NCBI GenBank assembly: GCA_021737185.1
Contig: JAIPEL010000006.1
Coordinates: forward strand, 1 to 64,000
Direction: 5' to 3'
Length of the DNA stretch: 64,000 nucleotides
From: Desulfobacterales bacterium
Lineage (GTDB): Bacteria; Desulfobacterota; Desulfobacteria; Desulfobacterales; CAFBRK01
The translations under genes were made by a program, and so were the position numbers. The stretch's first letter is position 1, and every line of letters starts with the position of its first letter. The notes beneath the pieces were generated by a model that was not told where the DNA came from, ran no database searches, and saw only the letters and a list, made by a program, of their open reading frames with translations. Below, piece after piece: positions 2,408 through 15,423 of the stretch.

Positions 2408-2641
2408 GTGAAAAAAATGGTTGTCGGTATCGCTGCGTTGCTGCTCGTGGGGGTTGCCTGCCTGCTTCCGGTTTCCTGCTCGAAGGACAAGGAGGAAAAG
2501 GGAAGTGTCGAAAAAATGACGGAAAAAGCCGGAAAGGATGTGGCGAACAAGCTCATGGCGCCTATCGACAAGGCCAAGGCCGCCAAGGAAATGCAGGAGG
2601 AGCGGGACCGGGAAGCGGCAGAGAAGGTGCCGGCCAAGTGA
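2408..2641 (+). CDS. Small lipoprotein, hypothetical
   Basis: 77 aa; signal peptide with lipobox-like LLPVSC; charged C-terminus. Confidence 0.6.
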   Translation: MKKMVVGIAALLLVGVACLLPVSCSKDKEEKGSVEKMTEKAGKDVANKLMAPIDKAKAAKEMQEERDREAAEKVPAK

Positions 2642-2674
2642 AACATACCACCTTTTCGGAGGCAGGGACGGACA

Positions 2675-2839
2675 GTGCCGGAACCGGGAAGGTCGAGTAA
2701 TATTCAGACCGCCAGTCGAAACGTGGTCAAATCCTGGGTCATCGGCGGCTTTGCCATGAGCGTCGTCAAAGGGGAGATCGCATCCGAAAACGGCAAAACC
2801 CGGTACGCGGTCCAAGGGCTCGCCGAGCTGATCATCTAA
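2675..2839 (+). CDS. Small hypothetical protein (GTG start) or gene remnant
   Basis: VPEPGRSSNIQTASRNVVKSWVIGGFAMSVVKGEIASENGKTRYAVQGLAELII*, directly downstream of the lipoprotein. Confidence 0.35.
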   Translation: MPEPGRSSNIQTASRNVVKSWVIGGFAMSVVKGEIASENGKTRYAVQGLAELII

Positions 2840-2925
2840 AGCATCCCTTCGCGGCAATCCGAGTCTGGGGCAGGTTTTTTTGATAAGCCGGCCCAGGTCT
2901 CGATCCGGGGGCGTCCATAAGCTTC

Positions 2926-3046
2926 AGAAATTACTGGATTCCCGCTTTCGCGGGAATGACGAAGGAAATTACTAAATTTCCGCTGCTGTTTACTCCGGAC
3001 TCGATCCGGGGCGGGAATGACGAAAAAGGGAAATTCGGCCTTTTTG
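2926..3046. repeat. Degenerate copy of an intergenic palindromic repeat
   Basis: Contains ATTCCCGCTTTCGCGGGAAT (2938-2957) and a GACTCGATCCGGGGCGGGAATGACGAAAAAGGGAAATTCGGCCTTTTTGCG segment shared with the elements near 14.3, 15.6 and 17.2 kb. Confidence 0.6.
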
Positions 3047-3227
3047 CGCAGCCGGTGAAGCTGGGACTTCTCAAACTCGAAGGGGCAGGCCGATCCGCCC
3101 ACTACCGACTCACCGGGAATCGGCTCAAAAACGGCTCAAACGGCTCTCCCGAACGTAAAGCCGGAAATGGCTCATAAACGGCTCAAATGGCTCACTCGGC
3201 GAAACCGCAAAACATTGAACCATCCGT

Positions 3228-3434
3228 CTATGAATCAATCGAGACCCCGGCTTCGTCGATCGGGTCCGGATTCAGCCAGATCACCCACCTGCCGCCGTCT
3301 TCTTCCGACCAGTATATCAACCGGATCTGTTCCATCCCGGCCCACTGGCCTGACACGGCGTCCCGTAGACGGTCATAGCGGCTTGACGAAACTGGGTGGC
3401 CTTCCTTCGAATCCGGTTTTCGCAAATTGCTCAT
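3228..3434 (-). CDS. Small hypothetical protein
   Basis: 68 aa; strong Shine-Dalgarno (AGGAGGATATCATG) just upstream; co-directional with 3447-6550. Confidence 0.55.
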   Translation of the reverse strand: MSNLRKPDSKEGHPVSSSRYDRLRDAVSGQWAGMEQIRLIYWSEEDGGRWVIWLNPDPIDEAGVSIDS

Positions 3435-3446
3435 GATATCCTCCTG

Positions 3447-4760
3447 TCACGGTGAGATCAGCGCCTGGAAGTAGGAATAGGCGGCAATGATCTGCCTGTT
3501 TTCTCGAACTGCGCCGGCGATTTCGTTTCTCGCCTCGTCAAGCCTCTTCCGTTCTTCGTCCAGGGAATCGCATGCCGCCGGAGGATCGCATTGAAGCGCG
3601 CCGTCTTTTTTCTCGTTTATTGCCGTTTCGATGGCCCTCAGAGAAGACTCCAAGTCTGTCCAGTAGCGAATGACCTTGTAAAAGTCGGTGTTTTTGTCAT
3701 AGGGGATCGAATCATCTGAGCTTCGAGTGAGTGTCGGACTGACATATCGATAGCGATATAGATTTTTCGCGGTGAAGGTTGAAGGAATGGGCAGTTCGGA
3801 AACCAGACCGTCCAGCTTTTCTTTATGGGCCGCTGCGACCGAATCGCCGCTTTGCTTCAATTTTATCAATGTGTCGTAAAAAGCAGATAGTGTATAGGGT
3901 AAAATATACTCCTGGTGTCTTCCCAGTCCCTCCCCGAATTTGCGCAAGTAGGAATTTTGGTTCGGGTCCAGTCTGACCAGCATCGCCCTTCTTACATCCT
4001 GCTGAAACGCCAATAGGGTTGCTGCCTCTCCCGTGGCAAAGTATTGAATATAGCTGGTTTCGAGGGACTGGGCACCGGTATTGGCATCAATGGGAGCGTC
4101 GAGGGTGGCAAGGAGAGGGGCCATTTTCATTCTGTATTTTTTGTTATCATCAGAGTTTTCCTCGGCCATCGAAATCGGCAGTAGCGCAAATTCTTTTCGA
4201 TTGTACCCGAGCTTTGCCGAATCCGGCAGCGCGCCTGTCATGGTCGACCATGCGACTTTTAGACCCAGCATGGTATCGGTTCCGAAGAAAACCGTTTTGA
4301 CATCAACCTCTTTTAGGCCCGTGCCATTTTCAGCTTTCTGAAAAGAATGCCATGTCCCGGGATTCGGCTTGTTGTCCAACTCAAGACTGCTGTCGACCAG
4401 GGTTTTGACTTGTTTCAATCGTTCATTCCATTGGTCGGGCGTCGTTTGATCTCCATAAAATGCGGCCAGAACGACAGCTGCGTCCCCGGTAGCGAAGGTT
4501 GACCCTAAATGAGGGGCAAACGCCCCCGAATTCTTGAATTTGAAGCTGGCGAGCACCGGGAGTTTTTTTCCGTTTTCGAACTGGGGCCCCAGGACACCTT
4601 CAATCCGGGAGATATCCAGGGCCAAAGTGGGCGGTTCGTAGGACAATTCGAGCCCTGCATTAGTTTTTGTTATGAACATCGTACTGGTTTTTCCAACACT
4701 GCACCCGGTGGCCATCAGAATGACGGCAAAAAGCGTAACGGCCCTGAAAGAAAACATCAT
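3447..4760 (-). CDS. Hypothetical lipoprotein, 437 aa
   Basis: Signal peptide and lipobox (ILMATGC); overlaps the upstream gene at 4757-4760. Confidence 0.75.
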   Translation of the reverse strand: MMFSFRAVTLFAVILMATGCSVGKTSTMFITKTNAGLELSYEPPTLALDISRIEGVLGPQFENGKKLPVLASFKFKNSGAFAPHLGSTFATGDAAVVLAAFYGDQTTPDQWNERLKQVKTLVDSSLELDNKPNPGTWHSFQKAENGTGLKEVDVKTVFFGTDTMLGLKVAWSTMTGALPDSAKLGYNRKEFALLPISMAEENSDDNKKYRMKMAPLLATLDAPIDANTGAQSLETSYIQYFATGEAATLLAFQQDVRRAMLVRLDPNQNSYLRKFGEGLGRHQEYILPYTLSAFYDTLIKLKQSGDSVAAAHKEKLDGLVSELPIPSTFTAKNLYRYRYVSPTLTRSSDDSIPYDKNTDFYKVIRYWTDLESSLRAIETAINEKKDGALQCDPPAACDSLDEERKRLDEARNEIAGAVRENRQIIAAYSYFQALISP

Positions 4761-5167
4761 GGCGACTCCTTCCCCGACTTCGGGTAGTCATTCATCATCT
4801 CTTCGAATTCAGCCCCATCGTAGCTTGCATTTTCCGGCAGGGGGTACATGCTGCCCACGGCAACACCGAAAAACCCCTTGCTTGGAAATTCCAGGCGGAT
4901 CGAGGTATCCTCCTTTGCAATGTCGATAAACTGCAGTCGATGCCATCCTGCGGCGAAATATGTCTGTTGGGGGACGCGGCCCAGTGTAATGCCGATCGTA
5001 TCTGTTCCGTGGACGATTGCCTGAAGACCTTCCTCCGGAACGAGAACCCGCATTTTCATATGACCGACGCCCCAAATATGTTGAACGCCGGCCTCTTCGT
5101 CCGCATAGTGAATGGCACATCCGAAGAGGACGGGAATCAAACAAAATAACAAGGAAAAGACTTTCAT
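4757..5167 (-). CDS. Hypothetical small lipoprotein
   Basis: MKVFSLLFCLIPVLFGC lipoprotein signal; 4-bp overlap with the downstream gene. Confidence 0.65.
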   Translation of the reverse strand: MKVFSLLFCLIPVLFGCAIHYADEEAGVQHIWGVGHMKMRVLVPEEGLQAIVHGTDTIGITLGRVPQQTYFAAGWHRLQFIDIAKEDTSIRLEFPSKGFFGVAVGSMYPLPENASYDGAEFEEMMNDYPKSGKESP

Positions 5168-5246
5168 TGAATGCGCTGGCCTGAAAGAGGTCATTTCGGT
5201 GTTTCCATCCTCCTGTTGTCCTGGCGTTGCTCACGCCGAACGGTCT

Positions 5247-5504
5247 TCAGCGTTCCGGATCCGGTTTCGAGGAAGGAGAAGGGGAGGCCCCGCGCTTTTT
5301 TCTTTCCCCTTTCTTGGGCCGCTTTTTTTCGGTGTTTTTTTCTATCTGTTCGATGTCGGCAAGCAGTAGGAGCGAAGGCTTTGAGGTTCGTCCGAATTGC
5401 GCCTCTTCTTTTACGGGAGGCTTCCTGCAGAAGGCCGTTTCCAGCGTCCGGCGGATCATTTCATCCAGGTCGATCGGCATCTTTTCCCGGCGCCGCATCC
5501 TCAT
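5247..5504 (-). CDS. Hypothetical small charged protein (start uncertain)
   Basis: In-frame part of ORF 5247-5612 beyond the upstream gene stop: MRMRRREKMPIDLDEMIRRTLETAFCRK...; lysine/proline-rich tail. Confidence 0.4.
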   Translation of the reverse strand: MRMRRREKMPIDLDEMIRRTLETAFCRKPPVKEEAQFGRTSKPSLLLLADIEQIEKNTEKKRPKKGERKKRGASPSPSSKPDPER

Positions 5505-5521
5505 GGCTTGGATGCGCCTCC

Positions 5522-6550
5522 TCAAGCGGGGGGTTTGTCCACGAACTTCGGGCCCAGGTAACCAGCCTGGCTCATTCCCATCAGGACCACCAATTCCCAG
5601 GGGATTTCCCACAGGACGCCGTCCAGGATGCTCTTGGCCAGAAACAGCACCAGGAGAAGGCCTGTCCAGAAGAGCATCTGGGCCTTGGCAATGGACAGGT
5701 CCTTGGCCGGGGACGATGTTCTGGAGACGCTGACAAGATCTGCCAGGTGCGGCGTAACCGGCGGCGCGGGCGCCTGCGGCAAGATCGCGTTGCCGGACTC
5801 CGGTGCGGGAGGTTTGGAGACCTTGGCGTAACTGATTCCCGTGGTGGCCAGGGACAGGCCCATCAGGGCAAGCAGGGCGTCGGGAATTTCCGGGACCTGA
5901 TGCTGAAACAGCCCGAAGCCGAATACGACGGTGCCGATGGCCACGGTCCAGAGGGCCATCTGGGTGCGGGAAAGGGAAAGATAGCCGTCGGCTCCCGTGA
6001 TCAGGTAGATCGGGCTTCCCTTGGCGGTTTTCGAAATCCAGAGAATGAATGCGACCACGGCCGCGACAACCGCCAGGGTGTAAAGCAGGACCATTTTTCC
6101 GTTGCCCAGATTCACCTCTTTGCCGACCTGTTTCTCATTCCACACCGGGTTGGCGGCCTCGGTCTTCCAGTGGAGAATCGGCGTCACCCGCTTCATGGCC
6201 TTTTGCCGGATCGGCTCGTAGTTGCTGAGGTCGAAAAAAAGCAGCGCGCCGACAAGGGAAGTCTTCTGCCCGTTTTCTTCCCTTTCCCAGCGCTGATGTT
6301 CGATCATGTCGTAGGGGGAGATAAAATCGCCGCTCTTTTCCGGTTTTTTCCCCGCATCTTCTTTGCCCAGTAAATAGAGCCGAGGTTCCTGGTTTGCAGA
6401 GATGTTCGGTGTGACAAACACGCGGACCGGTTGGGATACGAGTTGTCCGTCGGGCATCAGAAGACGCGGCGGCGGATCGGCGGAAAAGCAGGGACCTGAA
6501 ATCGTTGCTGTTAAACAGGCAAGTGCCAAACAGGCGGCGATTCGAAGCAT
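5522..6550 (-). CDS. Hypothetical secreted/membrane protein with duplicated two-TM 'QM-WT...IP-LLxLMG-S' module
   Basis: 342 aa; signal peptide, TM near 'VLLYTLAVVAAVVAFILWI', then repeats SLSRTQMALWT...LMGLSLATTGISY and SIAKAQMLFWT...LMGMSQAGYLG. Confidence 0.7.
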   Translation of the reverse strand: MLRIAACLALACLTATISGPCFSADPPPRLLMPDGQLVSQPVRVFVTPNISANQEPRLYLLGKEDAGKKPEKSGDFISPYDMIEHQRWEREENGQKTSLVGALLFFDLSNYEPIRQKAMKRVTPILHWKTEAANPVWNEKQVGKEVNLGNGKMVLLYTLAVVAAVVAFILWISKTAKGSPIYLITGADGYLSLSRTQMALWTVAIGTVVFGFGLFQHQVPEIPDALLALMGLSLATTGISYAKVSKPPAPESGNAILPQAPAPPVTPHLADLVSVSRTSSPAKDLSIAKAQMLFWTGLLLVLFLAKSILDGVLWEIPWELVVLMGMSQAGYLGPKFVDKPPA

Positions 6551-7140
6551 TTCCCACCTCCCGGGTTTTCAGCAAAGCCTTTAGCCCCCTGTGAAAGAAG
6601 ACCCGTGCGGCCGCCCGCAACACCGGTTTTAGACGGACCCGGTGATGACGTCCTGGGGGCGGCAGTCGCTGAGCGACTGCAATCGAATGCGGGTGCCGGT
6701 TCTTTTTCTTTTTTGGACTATGGCGATTCGGGCAAGAGAGGCAGCGTGATCTTGGAACCGGCGTCAGAGAGAGATTTTCATTGCCCGGCCAATTTTTTGC
6801 TTCCGCCTCTTCGTTATGCGGTAGTTTGAAAAATGTATAATCAACATTCGTGCCAAAAGAAAGCATAAAAAGGAGCGTGGGCCGAAAACCAGCAATTTTT
6901 GTTAGTTTGCAGGGTGTTGAACCGGCGGTTTGCCGGCGGCAAGTCGGGGAGGGCCGGTTCCGGAGCCGGACAGCCCCTGAAACGACGCATCCGGTGCCCA
7001 GATTGCTGTGCAGTCACGACCGGAAAATTGGGCAGCGCCGGGGCAGGGGCAGCGGGTCCGGATTGCCTGCAGCCCCGCCTGCGGAGGACTAATCAGACTG
7101 TCCAGACGGCGTCGGCCGGGTATGGGGTCTGGCTGGGGTC

Positions 7141-7584
7141 TGGGGTCGCCCACGACAACTTGCTGTACTAACATTGAATTGCTTAATATCAGGCCTTCAA
7201 AATAGGCCTATAATGCGTTTTTCAGGGTCAAAAACAAGCATATAGAATTTTTCCCGGAGTTGATGCTTCCATGGCCAGAGCCGGCCGCCACTACATTCCC
7301 GGCTTTATTTGGCATCCCGCTTCGCCAAGGCTTCGCAGGACAAGTATTACCCATCAGGCTTCGCCGTTGGCTTCGACCCGACAGGCCGGTGCCACAAACG
7401 GGAGTTTCTCCTTCGCTTCCGAAAGGACCGTTATCGGTGGCTGCAGTGGCTTTATCAGGCGAAGAAGCGATACGGAATAACAAAGGAATGGAATTGCGGG
7501 AACCGGTGGTCCCCTATAATGCGCCTTTTGAGGCCGAAAACCCGGATATGGATGCGAAAACCCGCTATTTTTGACCGTCATCTG
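7141..7584 (+). mobile_element. Decayed RAYT/Y1-transposase-derived non-autonomous element, copy 2
   Basis: Core 7271-7584 nearly identical to 1774-2087; shares the same internal insertion and the same truncation. Confidence 0.75.
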
Positions 7585-7595
7585 GCTAGGTCTTT

Positions 7596-7696
7596 GGGGA
7601 CGTCCATTGGTTTATAACTTTCTTGTTATTTTCGCTCTATAAGGGTGTTGCCACAAAAATGGAAGGATGGAAACTTATAATCCAATGAACGTCCCC
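7596..7696. repeat. Inverted-repeat element, 22-bp arms
   Basis: Arms GGGGACGTCCATTGGTTTATAA (7596-7617) and TTATAATCCAATGAACGTCCCC (7675-7696), 20/22 complementary. Confidence 0.7.
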
Positions 7697-7812
7697 CAAC
7701 CCTTCCCTAATCTTGGGGTCAGACCACGGCAACTTGTTGCAATAGCAATGAATAGATTGGCGTTTAGTTTTTAATGATAACAGGTGCGTGAGCATCATCT
7801 CAGGAGATCAAA

Positions 7813-8226
7813 ATGAAGGCAAAAAAAGTAAACGTATCTGGTCTTGGTCGTCTCCCTGCCTTTTGCCATGCAGTGATTGCGGGGGATTTTATTTATGTTT
7901 CTGGTACATTGGGGACAGAATCAGACTCAATGGAGCTTGTAGGGGGTGGAACCGGGGCGGAAACCGCTCAGGCCCTTCAGAATATTAGCCTCATTCTAAA
8001 GGAATGCGGTGCCTCTCTTTCTGATCTTGTAAAAGTAAGTGTTTTTCTGGCTGATATAAAGACGTTCCCAGAAATGAATGATGCCTACCTTGAAGTGATG
8101 GGCAGTGATCCTCCCGCACGTATCACGGTTGGTGGAGCCGAATTGGCACGTGGCGCTGCCGTCGAGATTGATGCGGTGGCATACAAGCCAAACGCGATGT
8201 CCGGCGGAATTACCGATACTCAATAA
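7813..8226 (+). CDS. RidA family (YjgF/YER057c/UK114) protein
   Basis: 137 aa; GDFIYVSGTLG, SDLVKVSVFLADIKTFPEMNDAY and GAAVEIDAVAYK motifs. Confidence 0.85.
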   Translation: MKAKKVNVSGLGRLPAFCHAVIAGDFIYVSGTLGTESDSMELVGGGTGAETAQALQNISLILKECGASLSDLVKVSVFLADIKTFPEMNDAYLEVMGSDPPARITVGGAELARGAAVEIDAVAYKPNAMSGGITDTQ

Positions 8227-8235
8227 GGAAGCATA

Positions 8236-9081
8236 ATGAATTCTGGAACACTTTATCGTAGAGCAGCGTTTACGGACAACCCCAAGGGTGGTAATCCCGC
8301 CGGAGTTTGGGTTGGTGAGACCTTGCCATCTGTAGATGTTATGCAGCGAATTGCGGCTGAAGTCGGTTACTCCGAAACTGCCTTTGTGGCGCCGACTAGC
8401 GGACAGAACCGAACGATTCGTTACTACAGTCCTGAGATTGAGGTGCCGTTTTGTGGTCACGCTACTATTGCGACAGGTGTCGTGCTCGGCGAGACCGAAG
8501 GAGACGGTACTTATCGATTAACAACTGCTGTGGGGGAGGTCTCAATCACCGTTCATCCCCAAGGTGGGGTACGTGAAGCCTCGTTGACTTCAGTGGAGCC
8601 AAGGTACACAGGTGCTTCCGATGTGCTTGTCAACGAAGCGCTCTCCGCGCTTGGATGGCTATCCAGTGATGTCGATGGCTCAATTCCTCCGGCCAGAGCT
8701 TACGCCGGGGCATGGCACTTGGTATTGGCAATCAATGATCCGCATAGACTGGCCAAGTTAAATTATGATTTTGAGAGACTGAAGGCGCTTATGCTTCGAG
8801 AAGGACTTACTACGCTACAATTGGTGTGGCGAGAGAGTACGAAAGTCTTTCACTCTCGCAACCCATTTCCAGTAGGTGGGGTTGTGGAAGACCCAGCCAC
8901 GGGCGCGGCGGCAGCAGCGCTTGGGGGGTATCTCCGGGAAGCCGAACTCATTGCTGTGCCCTCCACCATTTTCATCCGTCAAGGGGAAGCGATGGGCCGT
9001 CCGAGTCGACTGACAATCGAAATACCTGCTACAGGAGGAATTGTGGTAAGGGGTACTGCGGTTCCGATTGAGGTAGAGTAA
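8236..9081 (+). CDS. PhzF family isomerase/epimerase
   Basis: YRRAAFTDNPKGGNPAGVW, VGYSETAFV, RYYSPEIEVPFCGHAT and EDPATGAAAAALGGYL motifs of PhzF. Confidence 0.9.
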   Translation: MNSGTLYRRAAFTDNPKGGNPAGVWVGETLPSVDVMQRIAAEVGYSETAFVAPTSGQNRTIRYYSPEIEVPFCGHATIATGVVLGETEGDGTYRLTTAVGEVSITVHPQGGVREASLTSVEPRYTGASDVLVNEALSALGWLSSDVDGSIPPARAYAGAWHLVLAINDPHRLAKLNYDFERLKALMLREGLTTLQLVWRESTKVFHSRNPFPVGGVVEDPATGAAAAALGGYLREAELIAVPSTIFIRQGEAMGRPSRLTIEIPATGGIVVRGTAVPIEVE

Positions 9082-9151
9082 TGTCGAAGGAAGGTTGTGC
9101 TATCGAGTGCGGCTTCAATCCATAACAACCGCCCCACAAAGCGCTTAAGTC

Positions 9152-9299
9152 AGAAAAAGTCCGAATTTCCCCTCCCCTGGTGGGAGGGGACTAAGGGGAG
9201 GGGGTATAAAAGGCTGGAATCCTGTTTTATCCACCCTCACCCCGACCCTCTCCCATCAAAGGAGAGGGGGCCTTTTCGGCTTTTCACGATTTCATCAAG
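9152..9299. repeat. Degenerate inverted MITE-like element
   Basis: Ends AAAAAGTCCGAATTTCCC and GGCTTTTCACGATTTCATCAAG resemble the terminal repeats of the elements at 14.2-17.3 kb; interior carries CCCTCTCCCATCAAAGGAGAGGG. Confidence 0.45.
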
Positions 9300-9316
9300 C
9301 TTGACTCTTCTTCCTA

Positions 9317-9470
9317 TCGCAGCACAAAGCCTTCCTTCAGCGGATCGTCCGGGTCGATGAGAAACTCGTGGCGGCCGGTAATTTTGGCAGTGCCTTCCAC
9401 CTGCGGAATCACGGCGTCGTATGGGCCAAAGCGGGTCGTTTTCAGCACCCGGCCGGTGAAGCGGGTGCAA
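9317..9470 (-). pseudogene. 3' fragment of a proline racemase/hydroxyproline dehydratase family gene
   Basis: Near-identical to the 3' end of the gene at 14386-15423; similarity stops abruptly at about 9470. Confidence 0.8.
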
Positions 9471-9506
9471 ATCTTCTATATGATCCAGATATTTTGCATG
9501 CCATTG

Positions 9507-9926
9507 TTATGCGATCTCGCTTTGGTGGAGAACAATGTCTTTGCCGGGAGCAACAGCTCGATATAATTCGTTTAATTTCTCCAGGCTTGGCGTTGATGTT
9601 CCCCGCTCATATCGGGCATAGGCATTGCGCGACCTAACGCCCAATCTCGCTGCGGCTTCGGAAAGGGAAAGGCCACTCCTTTCACGCTGCCTTCGTAGAA
9701 ACAGGCTGATCAGGCAGCTTGGTTCGTTTGAGCTCACCTCGAAATCCCCATGTTTGCCTTGGTGGACGGTAACTGAAAAACCAGGGCGGTTGACCAAGCT
9801 CTCTAACATATCTTGAACCATAGCAAAGGCCTCCTTCCGCGTATGGCCTTGTGTCATAGCATCAAGAAGCGGAATTTCAGCAAGCCAGAACTTCCCGTCT
9901 TTGTATACTTTTCCGTAAAAACGCAT
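9507..9926 (-). CDS. hicB: HicB family antitoxin with XRE-type HTH C-terminus
   Basis: MRFYGKVYKDGKFWLAEIPLLDAMTQGHTRKEAFAMVQDMLE plus a C-terminal HTH (RERSGLSLSEAAARLGVRSRNAYARYERG). Confidence 0.85.
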   Translation of the reverse strand: MRFYGKVYKDGKFWLAEIPLLDAMTQGHTRKEAFAMVQDMLESLVNRPGFSVTVHQGKHGDFEVSSNEPSCLISLFLRRQRERSGLSLSEAAARLGVRSRNAYARYERGTSTPSLEKLNELYRAVAPGKDIVLHQSEIA

Positions 9927-9927
9927 A

Positions 9928-10104
9928 TTATATGTTCCTCCTATCCCGCCTGAGAATTGCTTTGGCAAGTTTTTCATTTATTTCGTTATGGCGAGGTATC
10001 GGTTCCTCACGTTCACCGTCGGTCCAGATATCATGGCTCTTGCCATGGCGAAGAAACGTCCAACCGATCCTGCGGAGCGCATTTTCTAAGTCACGTTTCT
10101 TCAT
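9928..10104 (-). CDS. hicA: HicA family mRNA interferase toxin
   Basis: 58 aa translated by hand: MKKRDLENALRRIGWTFLRHGKSHDIWTDGEREEPIPRHNEINEKLAKAILRRDRRNI*. Carries the HicA G-S-H-DIW and IPRHxEI pattern. Absent from the supplied ORF track because of its length. Confidence 0.85.
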   Translation of the reverse strand: MKKRDLENALRRIGWTFLRHGKSHDIWTDGEREEPIPRHNEINEKLAKAILRRDRRNI

Positions 10105-10110
10105 GACCTA

Positions 10111-10139
10111 ATTGTACACATATGTGTGTACGTGGTCAA
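10111..10139 (-). promoter_or_regulatory. hicAB promoter with operator-like inverted repeat
   Basis: Minus strand TTGACC-N17-TACAAT, with GTACACA-TATG-TGTGTAC (10114-10131) mostly in the spacer and reaching 3 nt into the -10 hexamer. Confidence 0.65.
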
Positions 10140-10161
10140 GGGTGCTGTAATCTATCCACAT

Positions 10162-10257
10162 AACAAGCTCATGGCGCCTATCGACAAGGCCAAGGCCGCC
10201 AAGGAAATGCAGGAGGAGCGGGACAGGGAAGCGGCAGAGAAGATGCCGGCCAAGTGA
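10162..10257 (+). pseudogene. 3' fragment duplicate of the lipoprotein gene at 2408-2641
   Basis: 96 bp matching 2546-2641 with 2 mismatches, including the stop codon. Confidence 0.85.
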
Positions 10258-10334
10258 GGAATACCAATTGGCGCAAATCCCTTGATCACCCCCTTGAGAG
10301 GTGGTGGGAAACATGGCGCCGGCGCAAAGAGTAC

Positions 10335-10490
10335 ATGACCATTTTCATCAATGGAAAACAGAAACGAGTCAAGCGACCACCGACGATTGACGGTCTGGAT
10401 GTGGACGAGTTTATTCGAAGGAACGCAGATCCCGTCTGGCTGCATCAAAATGAGATGTGGGAGTATATGGTCGATGAAGATGAATCCTGA
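10335..10490 (+). CDS. Small hypothetical protein
   Basis: MTIFINGKQKRVKRPPTIDGLDVDEFIRRNADPVWLHQNEMWEYMVDEDES, protein-like composition. Confidence 0.45.
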   Translation: MTIFINGKQKRVKRPPTIDGLDVDEFIRRNADPVWLHQNEMWEYMVDEDES

Positions 10491-10539
10491 GCTCCCAACG
10501 CTAATCAAACATGGTAGGTATGCCAAAGCGTTTGCTGCC

Positions 10540-11598
10540 TCAGGGGGTGCAGTTCAGGCACAGCGCCGCAAGATCCCGGAACACGCGAATCCGGTAGGTG
10601 CTCTGCCCGCAGCTGCCGCAGACCATCGGATCGATCTTCCGGACGATGGGATTGTATAGAAACGGCAGGGTCTTTCGCCTTTTTCCCACCTCGAAGCGGA
10701 CGAGCAGCTTCACCGCCGGGGTGCGGATCAGCATCCCGCAGCAGGGCCGCAGCTGCACCCGGATGCCGTATTTCTTGTAGAGGTCCTTTTTCTTGCGGGC
10801 CATCTCTTCGGGCAGCAGGGCGATTTTCTCCTTCCGGTCGCGGATGAGTTTTTCAGAGAGACCCGCCCGGTTCAAGCCGGCCTCCATTTCCTTTGAAAGC
10901 GCCGCGTAATAGGCTTCGAGGCTTTCCACATCCCGCCTCAACCTTTTGTTCATGCGGGCTTCAAACGGGCGGATCGCCTCGGCCACCAGGCCGGCCGCCC
11001 GTTTTTCTGCCCAGGCGCGGAGACGGTCGACCTGGGCAGAGCCCCAGGGGAAACGGGCTCCGGGCATATAGAATTCCTTGTCCAGGGCCGGGAGCATCTC
11101 TTCGACCCCGTCTATTTCCGCCCCGCTTTCCAGGTTGACGGCGGCGCTGACGAGCCCTTCTCTTTGTTCGTCGCTCTGGATGAGGTAGGAAAAAGTCAGG
11201 TGCAGGTATTCGGACTGAACCTGCGCATTGCTTTCTACCGCAACCAGCGCGCCTTCAATGTCGAACGTTTCACGGATCAGCCGCGTAAACCCGCCGCTTT
11301 TCAAATAATTGAAGTGCAGACGGCATCTGATCAGGGGCGGTTCGGCGCCTGCCTCGTGAAGCATCTTTTCCAGGATCTGCGATCCGTAGGTAACGGCGAC
11401 AGCCTGCGCACTATTTTGGTCGGGCTCGAAATCCGGGGCTGCCGAAAGGCGGACCATCTCCGGGACCTTTAGCCTGCCTGCCATGGATTCCGGAAGCAGG
11501 GCCTGGACGCCTCCGGCTTCTTCCTCGAAGACGGCGCCGCCGACTCGAAGAAACCGCTTCAGGAAACCTTCGATGAGCGGGTCTGCGTTAAAGCTCAT
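10540..11598 (-). CDS. Hypothetical protein with C-terminal zinc-binding module, partner of SNF2 helicase
   Basis: 352 aa; C-terminal LRPCCGM...CGSCGQSTYRIRVFRDLAALCLNC; overlaps the helicase gene end by 11 bp. Confidence 0.7.
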   Translation of the reverse strand: MSFNADPLIEGFLKRFLRVGGAVFEEEAGGVQALLPESMAGRLKVPEMVRLSAAPDFEPDQNSAQAVAVTYGSQILEKMLHEAGAEPPLIRCRLHFNYLKSGGFTRLIRETFDIEGALVAVESNAQVQSEYLHLTFSYLIQSDEQREGLVSAAVNLESGAEIDGVEEMLPALDKEFYMPGARFPWGSAQVDRLRAWAEKRAAGLVAEAIRPFEARMNKRLRRDVESLEAYYAALSKEMEAGLNRAGLSEKLIRDRKEKIALLPEEMARKKKDLYKKYGIRVQLRPCCGMLIRTPAVKLLVRFEVGKRRKTLPFLYNPIVRKIDPMVCGSCGQSTYRIRVFRDLAALCLNCTP

Positions 11599-13945
11599 AG
11601 GTTTCTCCGAAGAGCTTTTCGTCCAGTTCCCGGGTTTTCAGATACCCGTTCTTGCTGCGGACCAGTTGGGCCGCCAGACGCCCGAATCCCTTCCTGCGCT
11701 CCTTTGCATCGGCCGACTGCACCCAGATGTCGTACACCATCTCGGAAAATTCCAGTTCTCCGCGGATGCGGCCGAGAATCATGTCGATCTCCCCGATTAC
11801 CAGCTCGAACATGTTGATTTTCTTGTCCAGGATGTCGAGTATGTACTCTTCTGCGCTGCCGACGGCACAGAGATTGTGCACGACCACTTCTTTTTCCTGC
11901 CCGATGCGGTGGATGCGGCCGATGCGCTGTTCGATTTTCATCGGGTTCCACGGCAGGTCGTAGTTGATCATCTGGTGGCAGAACTGCAGATTGCGGCCTT
12001 CTCCGCCGATTTCGGTGGTGAGCAGAACGTTTTTTTCTGCCTTGAATTCAAGGATCTGCCGGTTTTTTTCCGCATTGTCCATCGCGCCGTGAAAGAGGCA
12101 GTGGTTGATGTTCTGCCAGGTGAAAAAATCAGACAGATGCTGCAGGGTGGCGATGTATTTGACAAAAACGATCGTCTTGCCCGGCATGGATCGAATCAGG
12201 CCCTGGAGCATTTCGTTTTTTCGGGTGTCGGCCATGCTGCGCGTCAGGTTCACGATGGCCCGGGCCTGACGGTGGCTGGCGTCGGAAAGATCGGGAGAAA
12301 GAAGCATTTTTTCGACGGTTTTGGCCACGGCCGGCGGAGAAGAGCCCGCCGTCGCCAGGAGATTTTTGAGAATCAGTTTCCGGCGAATGCCCGAATCGGC
12401 GTTGATTTGTTGCACCAGCTGCGTTACCCGGTCGTAAAGCTCCTGTTCATGAGGGCTGGGTTGCACCTGCGTCGTATAGGCAAACCGGGGCGGAAGGTTG
12501 ATGCGGGCCACCGCCCGGGTGTTTCGAATCATCACCCGGCCGAGAAGCTCCTTGAGACGGGCGCGATTTTGCGGGTCCGTCGGATCGCCCCGGGTCATGA
12601 ATTCGTTTCGAAATTCGGTGGCGGTTTTCAGCTGGCCCGGCTTGAGGAGCGTGATCAGGTTGTAGAGCTCGATCAGGTTGTTTTCCACCGGAGTGGCGCT
12701 GAGCAGGAGCAAAAACCGTTTTTTTAGGGCGTTGACGAGTTTCCAGTTGAGGGTGGAACGGTTTTTCAGGTGGTGGGCCTCGTCGACAACGACCAGGTCG
12801 TATTCGCGTTTGGTCACCGTGTCGAAATGCTTTTTGGACTTGGCGATGTTGATCGATGCCAACAAAAACGGCGATGTCCAGAATCCGTTTTTACCGGTTC
12901 GAAAATCGGGATCGTCGGTGGAGGGAAAAGTAAGGCCGAACTTGCTTTGCAGCTCGTCTTTCCACTGGCTGACCAAAGGGGTCGGGGTAAGAATCAGCGC
13001 GCTTTTGATCATGCCCCGCTGGACGTATTCCTTGAGGACGATCCCGGCCTCGACGGTTTTGCCCAGCCCCACCTCGTCTGCCAGGAGCGCACGGCCCCGA
13101 AAATCCTTGAGCACTTTTCGCGCCGTCTCCTCCTGATACGGAAGGGACCGGACATTTTTTAAAAAGGGGAGGCAGATCAGCTGGTCGTAGGATTCCCGGA
13201 AGCGGATCTGCTGGGCTTCCAAGGCCAGGGCATAGGCATCCGGGTCCTTGAAACTCCCGTCGGAAAGCACTGCGGCAAAAGCGTCCGCATCGATGAAAAC
13301 GGAAACCGGAACATCGGCGATAGGCGCGGGCTTGTTTCGGTCAAGATCGCCTGCAGCCGGTCGGGCCCCAGTCGCCTTTGAAGCTGCCGGCTTGGCAGGC
13401 GCAGCTTCCGAAGGCGGCGGGGCGTTGGAAATCCTGCCCATTTGCAGCGCTTCGGCGGCGATGGCGGCGTTTTCGATGACCGCAGCGCAATGTTCCTGCA
13501 CGGCGACCAGCGATTTTCTCAGCGCGGCAGTCCCCTTTTTCCGCCGTCCGGCGATTGCGCGAAGCGTTTCGTTTGCGATACCGAGCGCTTCCTGCCGTTG
13601 GCCCTGGAAAATAAGCCCCCAGCAAAGATTCGCCACGAATTCTTCGGTAAGGTTGCCGGTCCGGTAAAGCTGCCGGCATGCTTTGGTTTCCAGGTCGCGT
13701 CTGCCGGCCTTGCGGGCGATTCGCCCCTGGATCTTGAGCACATCCGGATCGTTGGGGGCGCTGCGGCGCGCTTTTTCGATCTTGCCAAGGGCTTTTTCGT
13801 ACTCCATGCCGTCTTCGAACCACATGGCTTCGTGGAGGAAAAAGTCGGCTTTCTCCCTTCGCTGAACCGCTGTGAACGCTTTTTTCCGCTCTTTTTTCTT
13901 GGCTTTTACCCGGGCCTTTCGCCGGGCGTGTTTGTCTTTGGCCAT
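11588..13945 (-). CDS. SNF2/Rad54-family helicase with N-terminal TPR-like region
   Basis: DEVGLGKTVEAG (Walker A), VVVDEAHHLKN (DEAH), RIGRIHRIGQ (motif VI); start MAKDKHARRKARVKAKKKERKK. Confidence 0.9.
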   Translation of the reverse strand: MAKDKHARRKARVKAKKKERKKAFTAVQRREKADFFLHEAMWFEDGMEYEKALGKIEKARRSAPNDPDVLKIQGRIARKAGRRDLETKACRQLYRTGNLTEEFVANLCWGLIFQGQRQEALGIANETLRAIAGRRKKGTAALRKSLVAVQEHCAAVIENAAIAAEALQMGRISNAPPPSEAAPAKPAASKATGARPAAGDLDRNKPAPIADVPVSVFIDADAFAAVLSDGSFKDPDAYALALEAQQIRFRESYDQLICLPFLKNVRSLPYQEETARKVLKDFRGRALLADEVGLGKTVEAGIVLKEYVQRGMIKSALILTPTPLVSQWKDELQSKFGLTFPSTDDPDFRTGKNGFWTSPFLLASINIAKSKKHFDTVTKREYDLVVVDEAHHLKNRSTLNWKLVNALKKRFLLLLSATPVENNLIELYNLITLLKPGQLKTATEFRNEFMTRGDPTDPQNRARLKELLGRVMIRNTRAVARINLPPRFAYTTQVQPSPHEQELYDRVTQLVQQINADSGIRRKLILKNLLATAGSSPPAVAKTVEKMLLSPDLSDASHRQARAIVNLTRSMADTRKNEMLQGLIRSMPGKTIVFVKYIATLQHLSDFFTWQNINHCLFHGAMDNAEKNRQILEFKAEKNVLLTTEIGGEGRNLQFCHQMINYDLPWNPMKIEQRIGRIHRIGQEKEVVVHNLCAVGSAEEYILDILDKKINMFELVIGEIDMILGRIRGELEFSEMVYDIWVQSADAKERRKGFGRLAAQLVRSKNGYLKTRELDEKLFGETYEL

Positions 13946-14039
13946 GATCGATTGTGTTTCGGCACGGCCGAAGGCCGGCCGGGGTTGTCGTCGCAATCTC
14001 AATTCCGTACTTATGGTTCTATGTCCAATGCCTCCTAAA

Positions 14040-14163
14040 ATGTCAAGAAGACCGGCTGGAGAATGCACTGAAGAAATCTGCCGACCTGTACGCGGAGCTG
14101 TACGGTCAGGATGAGGAGCTTGAACAACTCACAGAGTCTGCGATGGATGGATGGCCCGAATGA
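14040..14163 (+). pseudogene. C-terminal fragment of a small antitoxin-like protein
   Basis: ...CQEDRLENALKKSADLYAELYGQDEELEQLTESAMDGWPE*; followed by a short truncated ORF. Confidence 0.4.
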
Positions 14164-14232
14164 AAGCGCTCCTTGAGGACAGTCTTTGCCTTGGATGTTG
14201 GCATCTAAATCTGGAATTTTAAACCTGGAAAC

Positions 14233-14369
14233 TTGATTAAATCGTAAAAAGTGCCCGAAGCGTCATTCCGGGCTTGACCCGGAATCTATAACTTATCGAA
14301 ATCACTGGATTCCCGCTTTCGCGGGAATGACGGAAAAAGGAAAATTCGGACTTATTACGAAAGCATCAA
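14233..14369. repeat. MITE-like element M1
   Basis: Terminal inverted repeats TTGATTAAATCGTAAAAAGTGCC / GGACTTATTACGAAAGCATCAA; internal ATTCCCGCTTTCGCGGGAAT (14309-14328). Confidence 0.75.
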
Positions 14370-14385
14370 GCTTGATTCTCCTTTC

Positions 14386-15423
14386 CTATCGCAGCACGAA
14401 CCCTTCCTTTAGCGGATCGTCCGGGTCGATGAGAAACTCGTGCCGCCCGGTGATTTTGGCAGTGCCTTCCACCTGCGGAATCACGGCGTCGTATGGGCCG
14501 AAGCGGGTCGTTTCCAGCACGCGGCCGGTGAAACGGGTGCCGAGGATGCTCTCGACGACGATCGGCTCGTCTGTTCCGATGTCGTCTGCGGCGTGGTGGA
14601 TCGCCAGCCGGGCGCTGACCCCGGTGCCGGTGGGACAGCGGTCCACCTCGCCTTCGGCAAAGATGCACACGTTGCGGCTGTGGGCGTCCGGCGTCTTCGG
14701 CGGGCCGACGAAAATGGTCCCGTAAAGAAAGGAAAGGTCGGGCTCGAAGGGGTGCTCGATTTTCCGGGCGGCCATGACGGCTCTTTTGACGGCCATTCCC
14801 TTTTGGACGAGAGCGGCAAAATCCGAAGGCTCCGTGGTCAGTCCGATGCTCTCGGCGGAAACAAAGGCATAAAAGGCTCCTCCGAAGGCGATGTCGTAAT
14901 GCACCGCACCGATTCCCGGCACCTCGACGGTTTCGTTCTTCGCCAGGACGAACGATGGCACGTTTTGAAAATAGACGCTTTTGACCCGGCCGCCTTCCAC
15001 CCGCGCGTGGGCAATGACCCGGCCGGCCGGCGCATCGATGGTCAACGTGGTGACCGGCTCGACGGCGGCAACCGCCCCGGTTTCGACAACGGCCGTGGCG
15101 ATGCCGATGATGCCGTGGCCGCACATGGTGCTGTACCCCTCGTTGTGCAAAAACAGGACGCCGAAGTCCGCCCCTGCGGTGGTCGGCGGGGTGACGATGC
15201 ACCCGTACATGTCCGCATGACCCCTGGGCTCCCACATCAGGGCGGTGCGCAGATGATCGAGGCGGTCTTTCATGTACCGGCGCTTTTCCAGGATCGTCTC
15301 CCCGGGCAGGTCGGGCAGCCCGCCGGTGATCACCCGGAACGGCTCGCCCTCGGTGTGAAGGTCCAGGGTGGTGATGCGGGCCCAGTCGGCGGGCGGCGAC
15401 CAGGTTTTCAGTTTATCGAGCAT
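14386..15423 (-). CDS. Proline racemase family protein; active-site pattern suggests trans-3-hydroxy-L-proline dehydratase
   Basis: MCGHG first active-site Cys; second site reads DRCPTGTG where racemases have SPCGTG (Cys to Thr). Confidence 0.85.
   Translation of the reverse strand: MLDKLKTWSPPADWARITTLDLHTEGEPFRVITGGLPDLPGETILEKRRYMKDRLDHLRTALMWEPRGHADMYGCIVTPPTTAGADFGVLFLHNEGYSTMCGHGIIGIATAVVETGAVAAVEPVTTLTIDAPAGRVIAHARVEGGRVKSVYFQNVPSFVLAKNETVEVPGIGAVHYDIAFGGAFYAFVSAESIGLTTEPSDFAALVQKGMAVKRAVMAARKIEHPFEPDLSFLYGTIFVGPPKTPDAHSRNVCIFAEGEVDRCPTGTGVSARLAIHHAADDIGTDEPIVVESILGTRFTGRVLETTRFGPYDAVIPQVEGTAKITGRHEFLIDPDDPLKEGFVLR

Follow-up and report, generated by a model that had tools for sequence, protein, structure and literature searches.

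A hicAB toxin–antitoxin pair as the probable remnant of an integron cassette, flanked by two truncated gene copies

The window, by which we mean the whole stretch of 64,000 nucleotides analysed here (positions 1 to 64,000 of contig JAIPEL010000006.1 of a Desulfobacterales bacterium, genome G000), carries a hicAB toxin–antitoxin (TA) module of 0.7 kb surrounded by fragments of other genes (Table 1). That this is a HicAB pair, as a preliminary description of the sequence had claimed, is borne out by the PF07927 match of HicA and by the HTH C-terminus of its HicB partner. The HicA domain adjoins an HTH-type HicB, a single promoter is predicted for both, and the toxin is the single HicA-family match across its own genome. 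The start of hicB is conserved at codon 18 (alignment A3, 20 homologs); the best PDB match of the predicted HicB fold is a weak one to E. coli HicB (6u0i; E 7e-3, TM 0.41). The promoter pattern TTGACC-17-TACAAT was found once against 0.1 expected, and the GTACACATATGTGTGTAC palindrome within its spacer is kept in hicAB homologs. Because the module retains its own promoter and operator, it is predicted from its sequence to be still capable of TA function. A search for relatives on plasmids found none.

Table 1. Features of the hicAB region and of the intact genes related to its flanks (window coordinates)
Feature	Position	Strand	Remark
Intact lipoprotein gene	2408..2641	+	source family of LP'
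RidA (7813-8226) and PhzF-like (8236-9081) block	7774..9146	+	93% identical to G011
REP-type repeat adjoining PR'	9154..9303	.	many genome copies
PR', tail (3' end) of a proline-racemase-family gene without its 5' part	9314..9470	-	94% to 14386-14540
Remains of the attC first arm	9471..9505	-	AATGG.ATG common to L131; no GTTRRRY partner after
attC inverse core GCATAAC	9506..9512	-	overlaps the hicB stop codon
hicB antitoxin, intact	9507..9977	-	C-terminal HTH (HTH_31/HTH_3)
hicA toxin, intact	9928..10104	-	58 aa; PF07927 7.5e-9
Cassette-borne promoter TTGACC-17-TACAAT	10111..10139	-	GTACACATATGTGTGTAC palindrome within spacer
5' cassette boundary G|TTATGTGG	10156..10164	-	crossover between 10163 and 10164; LP' start
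LP', lipoprotein gene tail (last 31 codons), 5' part lost at the cassette edge	10162..10257	+	98% to 2546-2641
Third 5'-truncated gene (ORF 10254-10490)	10308..10490	+	RRKEYM onwards kept
TCCCAAC, attC inverse core following the stop of ORF 10254	10493..10499	+	rest of attC missing
Intact proline racemase / hydroxyproline-family gene	14386..15423	-	source family of PR'; PF05544 2.4e-112

The module is bordered on each side by the 3' end of a gene. For the racemase tail, PR', the gapless alignment of 9314-9468 with 14386-14540 covers the last 155 nt of the 345-aa gene; its coding part holds 10 mismatches, nine of them synonymous third-position changes. The match stops at GCACCCG (9464-9470), the hicB ORF ending at 9507, and a weaker similarity extends through the 3' flank (9275-9313) until it reaches the REP-type repeat. 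The lipoprotein tail, LP', differs from 2546-2641 at 2 of 96 positions and breaks sharply at 10161/10162; its gene family is present in 29/390 genomes of the order. Both fragments run in the same direction as their source genes, and in both the 5' part is missing on the side that faces hicAB. These measurements agree with the preliminary description, which had reported a duplicate of the 3' end of the 14386-15423 gene at 9317-9470, a sharp stop of that match about 37 bp from hicB (we measure 36 bp) and, with 2 mismatches, a duplicate of the last 96 bp of the lipoprotein gene at 10162-10257. Self-comparison of the 64 kb (at least 80 bp, E < 1e-10) yields just five repeat pairs: PR', LP', a decayed IS200/RAYT-like pair, one REP pair and one 78% pair. 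That two of the five flank one 0.7-kb module is not chance.

The other repeats may be described here in their own right. REP-type repeats of about 150 bp lie at 9154-9303, at 14271-14369 and on many G000 contigs, dozens of copies in all, and each proline-racemase tail (14386 and PR') has a REP at near-equal distance behind its stop codon. The two IS200/Y1-type RAYT transposase copies (1640-2087 and 7142-7584) are internally deleted and about 90% alike; a fuller copy with a Pfam Y1_Tnp match lies at 228-1004 of contig C125 (L053), and partial copies occur on several contigs. A mobile element with ends of its own was considered for the hicAB region and rejected: the flanking fragments are not terminal repeats, and the window holds no tRNA gene.

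Comparison with homologs locates both edges of the module. DNA homology to relatives in G001 (the Olavius algarvensis Delta 3 symbiont) and G044 is confined to 9500-10144 of the window, flanks excluded, and the homologs stop where the flanking fragments start. They are 77-83% identical and carry the cores TTATGY at the 5' end and GCATAAC over the hicB stop, with an attC behind hicB in most of the homologs that have these cores. Seven distinct hicAB loci have TTATGY or TTATGA as their 5' edge, with a mean pairwise identity of 0.91 over the six edge bases versus 0.34 in the preceding ten; the window core is TTATGT (10158-10163). The 5' edge is thus that of a cassette, with a G|TTRRRY crossover (the bar marking the point of exchange) and homologs in unrelated surroundings. 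At the opposite edge, GCATAAC, which corresponds to RYYYAAC and whose third base is A as in the homologs' attC, is also found at the hicB stop in L131, L133 and L135-L138.

Behind hicB, the relative in G001 has GCATAAC...GTTAGGC with a stem and L135/L136 have GCATAAC...GTTATGC; an attC also follows hicB in L137 and in L134 (70.7 bits, this site being itself a seed of the covariance model). In L131 an attC (770-826) directly precedes hicAB, and the GTTATGC ahead of hicA is the end of this preceding site, so that homologs stand in attC arrays in L131, L134 and L137. L131 is a Candidatus Omnitrophota contig (JAUYMS010000015.1) whose hicAB lies within its attC array, with an identity of 83% at the level of HicB. 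Its presence in another phylum is a case of cross-phylum cassette transfer, and relatives at 77-83% across such a distance form the pattern known for mobile cassettes. Based on these edges and relatives, we consider it very probable that hicAB is an integron gene cassette by origin.

The junction with LP' falls exactly at the cassette edge. On the hicAB strand, the sequence is GAGCTTGTTCGCC in the lipoprotein gene and GAGCTTGTTATGTGG in the window; lipoprotein identity stops just after GTT, a G followed by the TT that comes with every cassette. This 2-nt TT overlap is as predicted for integrase strand exchange at the G|TT of a secondary site, and the GNT crossover lies in the reverse strand of the lipoprotein gene as GAGCTTG|TTCGCC. 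Secondary sites of IntI1 require little beyond GNT or GTT (PMC10127599, PMC3518468), and cassette insertion into genomic attG sites is established according to the papers citing Loot et al. 2024 (PMC12901181, PMC12444791). We give integrase action at the lipoprotein gene roughly an even chance.

At the hicB end, the junction with PR' lies 36 bp behind hicB, inside the expected attC, where the sequence is joined to GCACCCG and no GTT is present. A covariance model search (R1, filters off) finds no attC in the window, and the hairpin of the attC remnant is weak and no better than that of shuffled sequence (14% of shuffles). Because a complete attC hairpin ending in GTTRRRY is missing, hicAB is an ex-cassette and not a functional one. 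A simple insertion into the lipoprotein gene would leave the 5' part of that gene here; a search of the window finds it nowhere apart from the intact gene, and PR' occupies the attC side, where the target of an attG or secondary-site insertion should continue. We therefore assume a further step at this end, most probably a deletion or template switching that began in attC; integrase-independent breakpoints within the variable terminal structures of attC have been reported (PMC10127599).

These junctions do not support the repeated recombination at gene 3' ends that had been suggested at the outset, since only the LP'/hicAB junction is at a crossover and PR' begins inside the attC remains. Elsewhere in the genome, no duplicated gene ends accompany the 12.5-kb attC cluster on contig C182, REP repeats being all that was found there, so 3'-end duplicates are no general companion of such modules here and the flanking tails look particular to the hicAB site. 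The alternative suggestion of a TA-carrying cassette exchange stands in substance, as a TA-carrying integron cassette, though without support for 3'-end recombination as its mechanism.

Two neighbours of hicAB show traces of cassette origin as well. The preliminary description had overlooked the truncation of ORF 10254, as well as the integron-cassette relatives of hicAB, of this ORF and of RidA-PhzF. In G011, a complete genome of another family, RidA-PhzF forms a cassette from GTTGGGC to GCCCAAC (complementary cores) with an attC (1829783-1829854) directly behind PhzF; in the window this attC is cut about 16 nt in and followed by a REP-type repeat. Close full-length homologs of ORF 10254 have a common start, MAKRKRKLTAAEKAEKKRRQKEYM or similar, and those in L113, L115-L117 and L119 carry CTCCCAAC/TTCCCAAC, with TCCCAAC immediately following the stop codon. 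In L116 this core opens a complete attC that runs to GTTAGGC; in the window TCCCAAC (10493-10499) is followed by the end of the next gene. To judge from these comparisons, RidA-PhzF and ORF 10254-10490 are ex-cassettes too. This part of the window is a cassette cluster that has collapsed and kept no attC; three adjacent ex-cassettes lie there in mixed orientation, each with its attC broken. Because hicAB is opposite in orientation to both of its ex-cassette neighbours, this is no simple array.

We propose that hicAB came in as a unit, its 5' end beginning with TTATGT and its attC beginning at the hicB stop. An integron integrase would most likely have joined this 5' end to the GTT inside a copy of the lipoprotein gene, at an attG-type or secondary site, cutting the copy at codon 46. 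Later, a break inside attC may have been joined to the tail of a copy of the proline-racemase gene, a step that would have removed the remaining attC together with the 5' part of the racemase gene. With its attC lost through this joining, the hicAB cassette would have been frozen, and RidA-PhzF and ORF 10254 may have suffered the same fate. As a whole, this account of a stranded cassette, joined by an integrase at the lipoprotein gene and later deprived of its attC by the racemase tail, seems to us likely. Against this account stand the lack of an intact attC in the window and of a complete intI in the window or the 91%-complete genome, and a PR' junction that has no integrase site.

The proposed history joins known kinds of cassette, namely those carrying TA genes, those inserted at secondary or attG sites and those deprived of their attC. 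A HicAB cassette occurs in the Treponema denticola integron (PMC4909258) and TA cassettes in that of Vibrio cholerae (PMC11023631). Like integron TA cassettes, the window module has a promoter of its own and a cassette core on either side, and its relatives have an attC behind hicB; unlike them, it is not part of an array, and most of its attC is gone. It shares a G|TT junction inside a non-integron gene with cassettes at secondary sites (PMC10127599, PMC3518468) and with attG cassettes (Loot et al. 2024, as cited in PMC12901181 and PMC12444791), whereas here the target gene lacks its far end and the attC is broken. The window cassettes also resemble CALIN, which are attC clusters without an integrase (PMC9024848), and fused cassettes whose attC is lost in part or entirely (PMC4670013), in that intI is absent and attC partially lost, but their orientations are mixed and zero attC sites are left. 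Without any attC, the window is missed by attC-based tools. In sum of its features, hicAB looks like an ordinary but well-kept scar of known gene mobility.

The source of the two gene tails could be different from the one that we propose. In a tandem duplication followed by decay, a unit from the lipoprotein gene (LP) to the racemase gene (PR) would have become LP1...PR1|LP2...PR2, the hicAB cassette would have inserted into LP2 close to the junction, and the 5' parts of PR1 and LP2 would have been deleted. PR' and LP' would then be decayed full-length second copies, which concerns the source of the fragments and does not deny the cassette. The order LP, PR', LP', PR and the orientation, all direct repeats, fit this explanation; both sources lie less than 8 kb away, and the divergence of the fragments (10/155 for PR', 2/96 for LP') is not significantly different (Fisher p 0.14). 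However, the presumed interiors (2650-9311 and 10266-14383) share only REP, so that large reciprocal losses would be needed, and no relative with adjacent LP and PR was seen. We think this explanation somewhat unlikely. It is also conceivable, if improbable, that replication stalled at attC hairpins and that template switching copied the tails of neighbours into the breaks. Such local patches would suit tails that come from neighbours 5 and 7.6 kb off, one per side and in direct orientation, as well as three successive broken attC sites and the known integrase-independent attC breakpoints (PMC10127599). They leave unexplained why LP' starts exactly at the crossover G|TT, and PR', 6% diverged and mostly at synonymous sites, is old or foreign for a local copy.

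In another explanation, the PR'-hicAB-LP' block, with or without RidA-PhzF, was imported by homologous recombination from a sister species that was already rearranged. The differences between PR' and PR are mainly synonymous (9/10), as between orthologs, and RidA-PhzF, at 93% to another family, indicates recent transfer here. When the changes are polarised by outgroups, however, three, all synonymous, fall on the branch of the intact gene, whereas the fragment's branch has two changes, of which one is nonsynonymous; the other differences are ambiguous. A dead fragment may thus also have given this pattern, and we judge the import to be a poor prospect. Finally, the junctions could be artefacts of a draft genome of 201 contigs with repeats nearby. 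Such a chimera is highly improbable: the LP' junction lies at a biologically meaningful base, and because the fragments differ from their sources they are not simple repeat collapses.

Returning to the stranded cassette, a more general, and rather doubtful, idea is that attC hairpins act as chromosomal breakpoints, at which three neighbouring cassettes were immobilised by being joined to gene 3' ends or repeats. Should the attC-less fossil cassettes left in this way be common, a large share of the TA and accessory genes found outside integrons would belong to them and be invisible to attC-based search. The locus offers a natural, base-by-base example of a mobile TA cassette turning into a fixed gene of the chromosome. 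Since ex-cassettes can be recognised without attC by an edge that they share with homologs in unrelated surroundings, orphan TA modules with a G|TT edge could be surveyed.

Integron remains are found across the own and related genomes. G000 has attC sites on contigs C182, C14, C93 and C125, the last of which also holds a C-terminal intI fragment; full-length intI is present in G001 (with one TGA), G017 and G039. C-terminal fragments of the integron integrase, of about 28-50 codons, occur at L054 5792-6107, L035 9312-9395 and L053 2596-2754, and those in several genomes begin near one same codon, at the catalytic RHSFATH box. In G044 such fragments follow a perfect palindrome, ATTATGCCGAGCTCGGCATAAT, and include one back-to-back pair; we considered them as marks of the process proposed for hicAB and rejected them, as they start behind this palindrome and not at GTT.

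The attC-bearing, integrase-less cluster on C182 (L224, 6800-17300) holds large genes: a STAND-like HEAT-repeat protein with a weak PADLOC match to PDC-M54A, a DUF6119 protein, and a radical SAM/SPASM protein that matches viperin models, although a maturase is the likelier identity. This cluster may extend onto contig C34. In the window itself, beyond the third ex-cassette, 10540-14068 encodes a conserved pair, an uncharacterised 352-aa protein and a SNF2-type helicase, whose genes are also found side by side in four more genomes from this order (L202, L203, L204 and L207).
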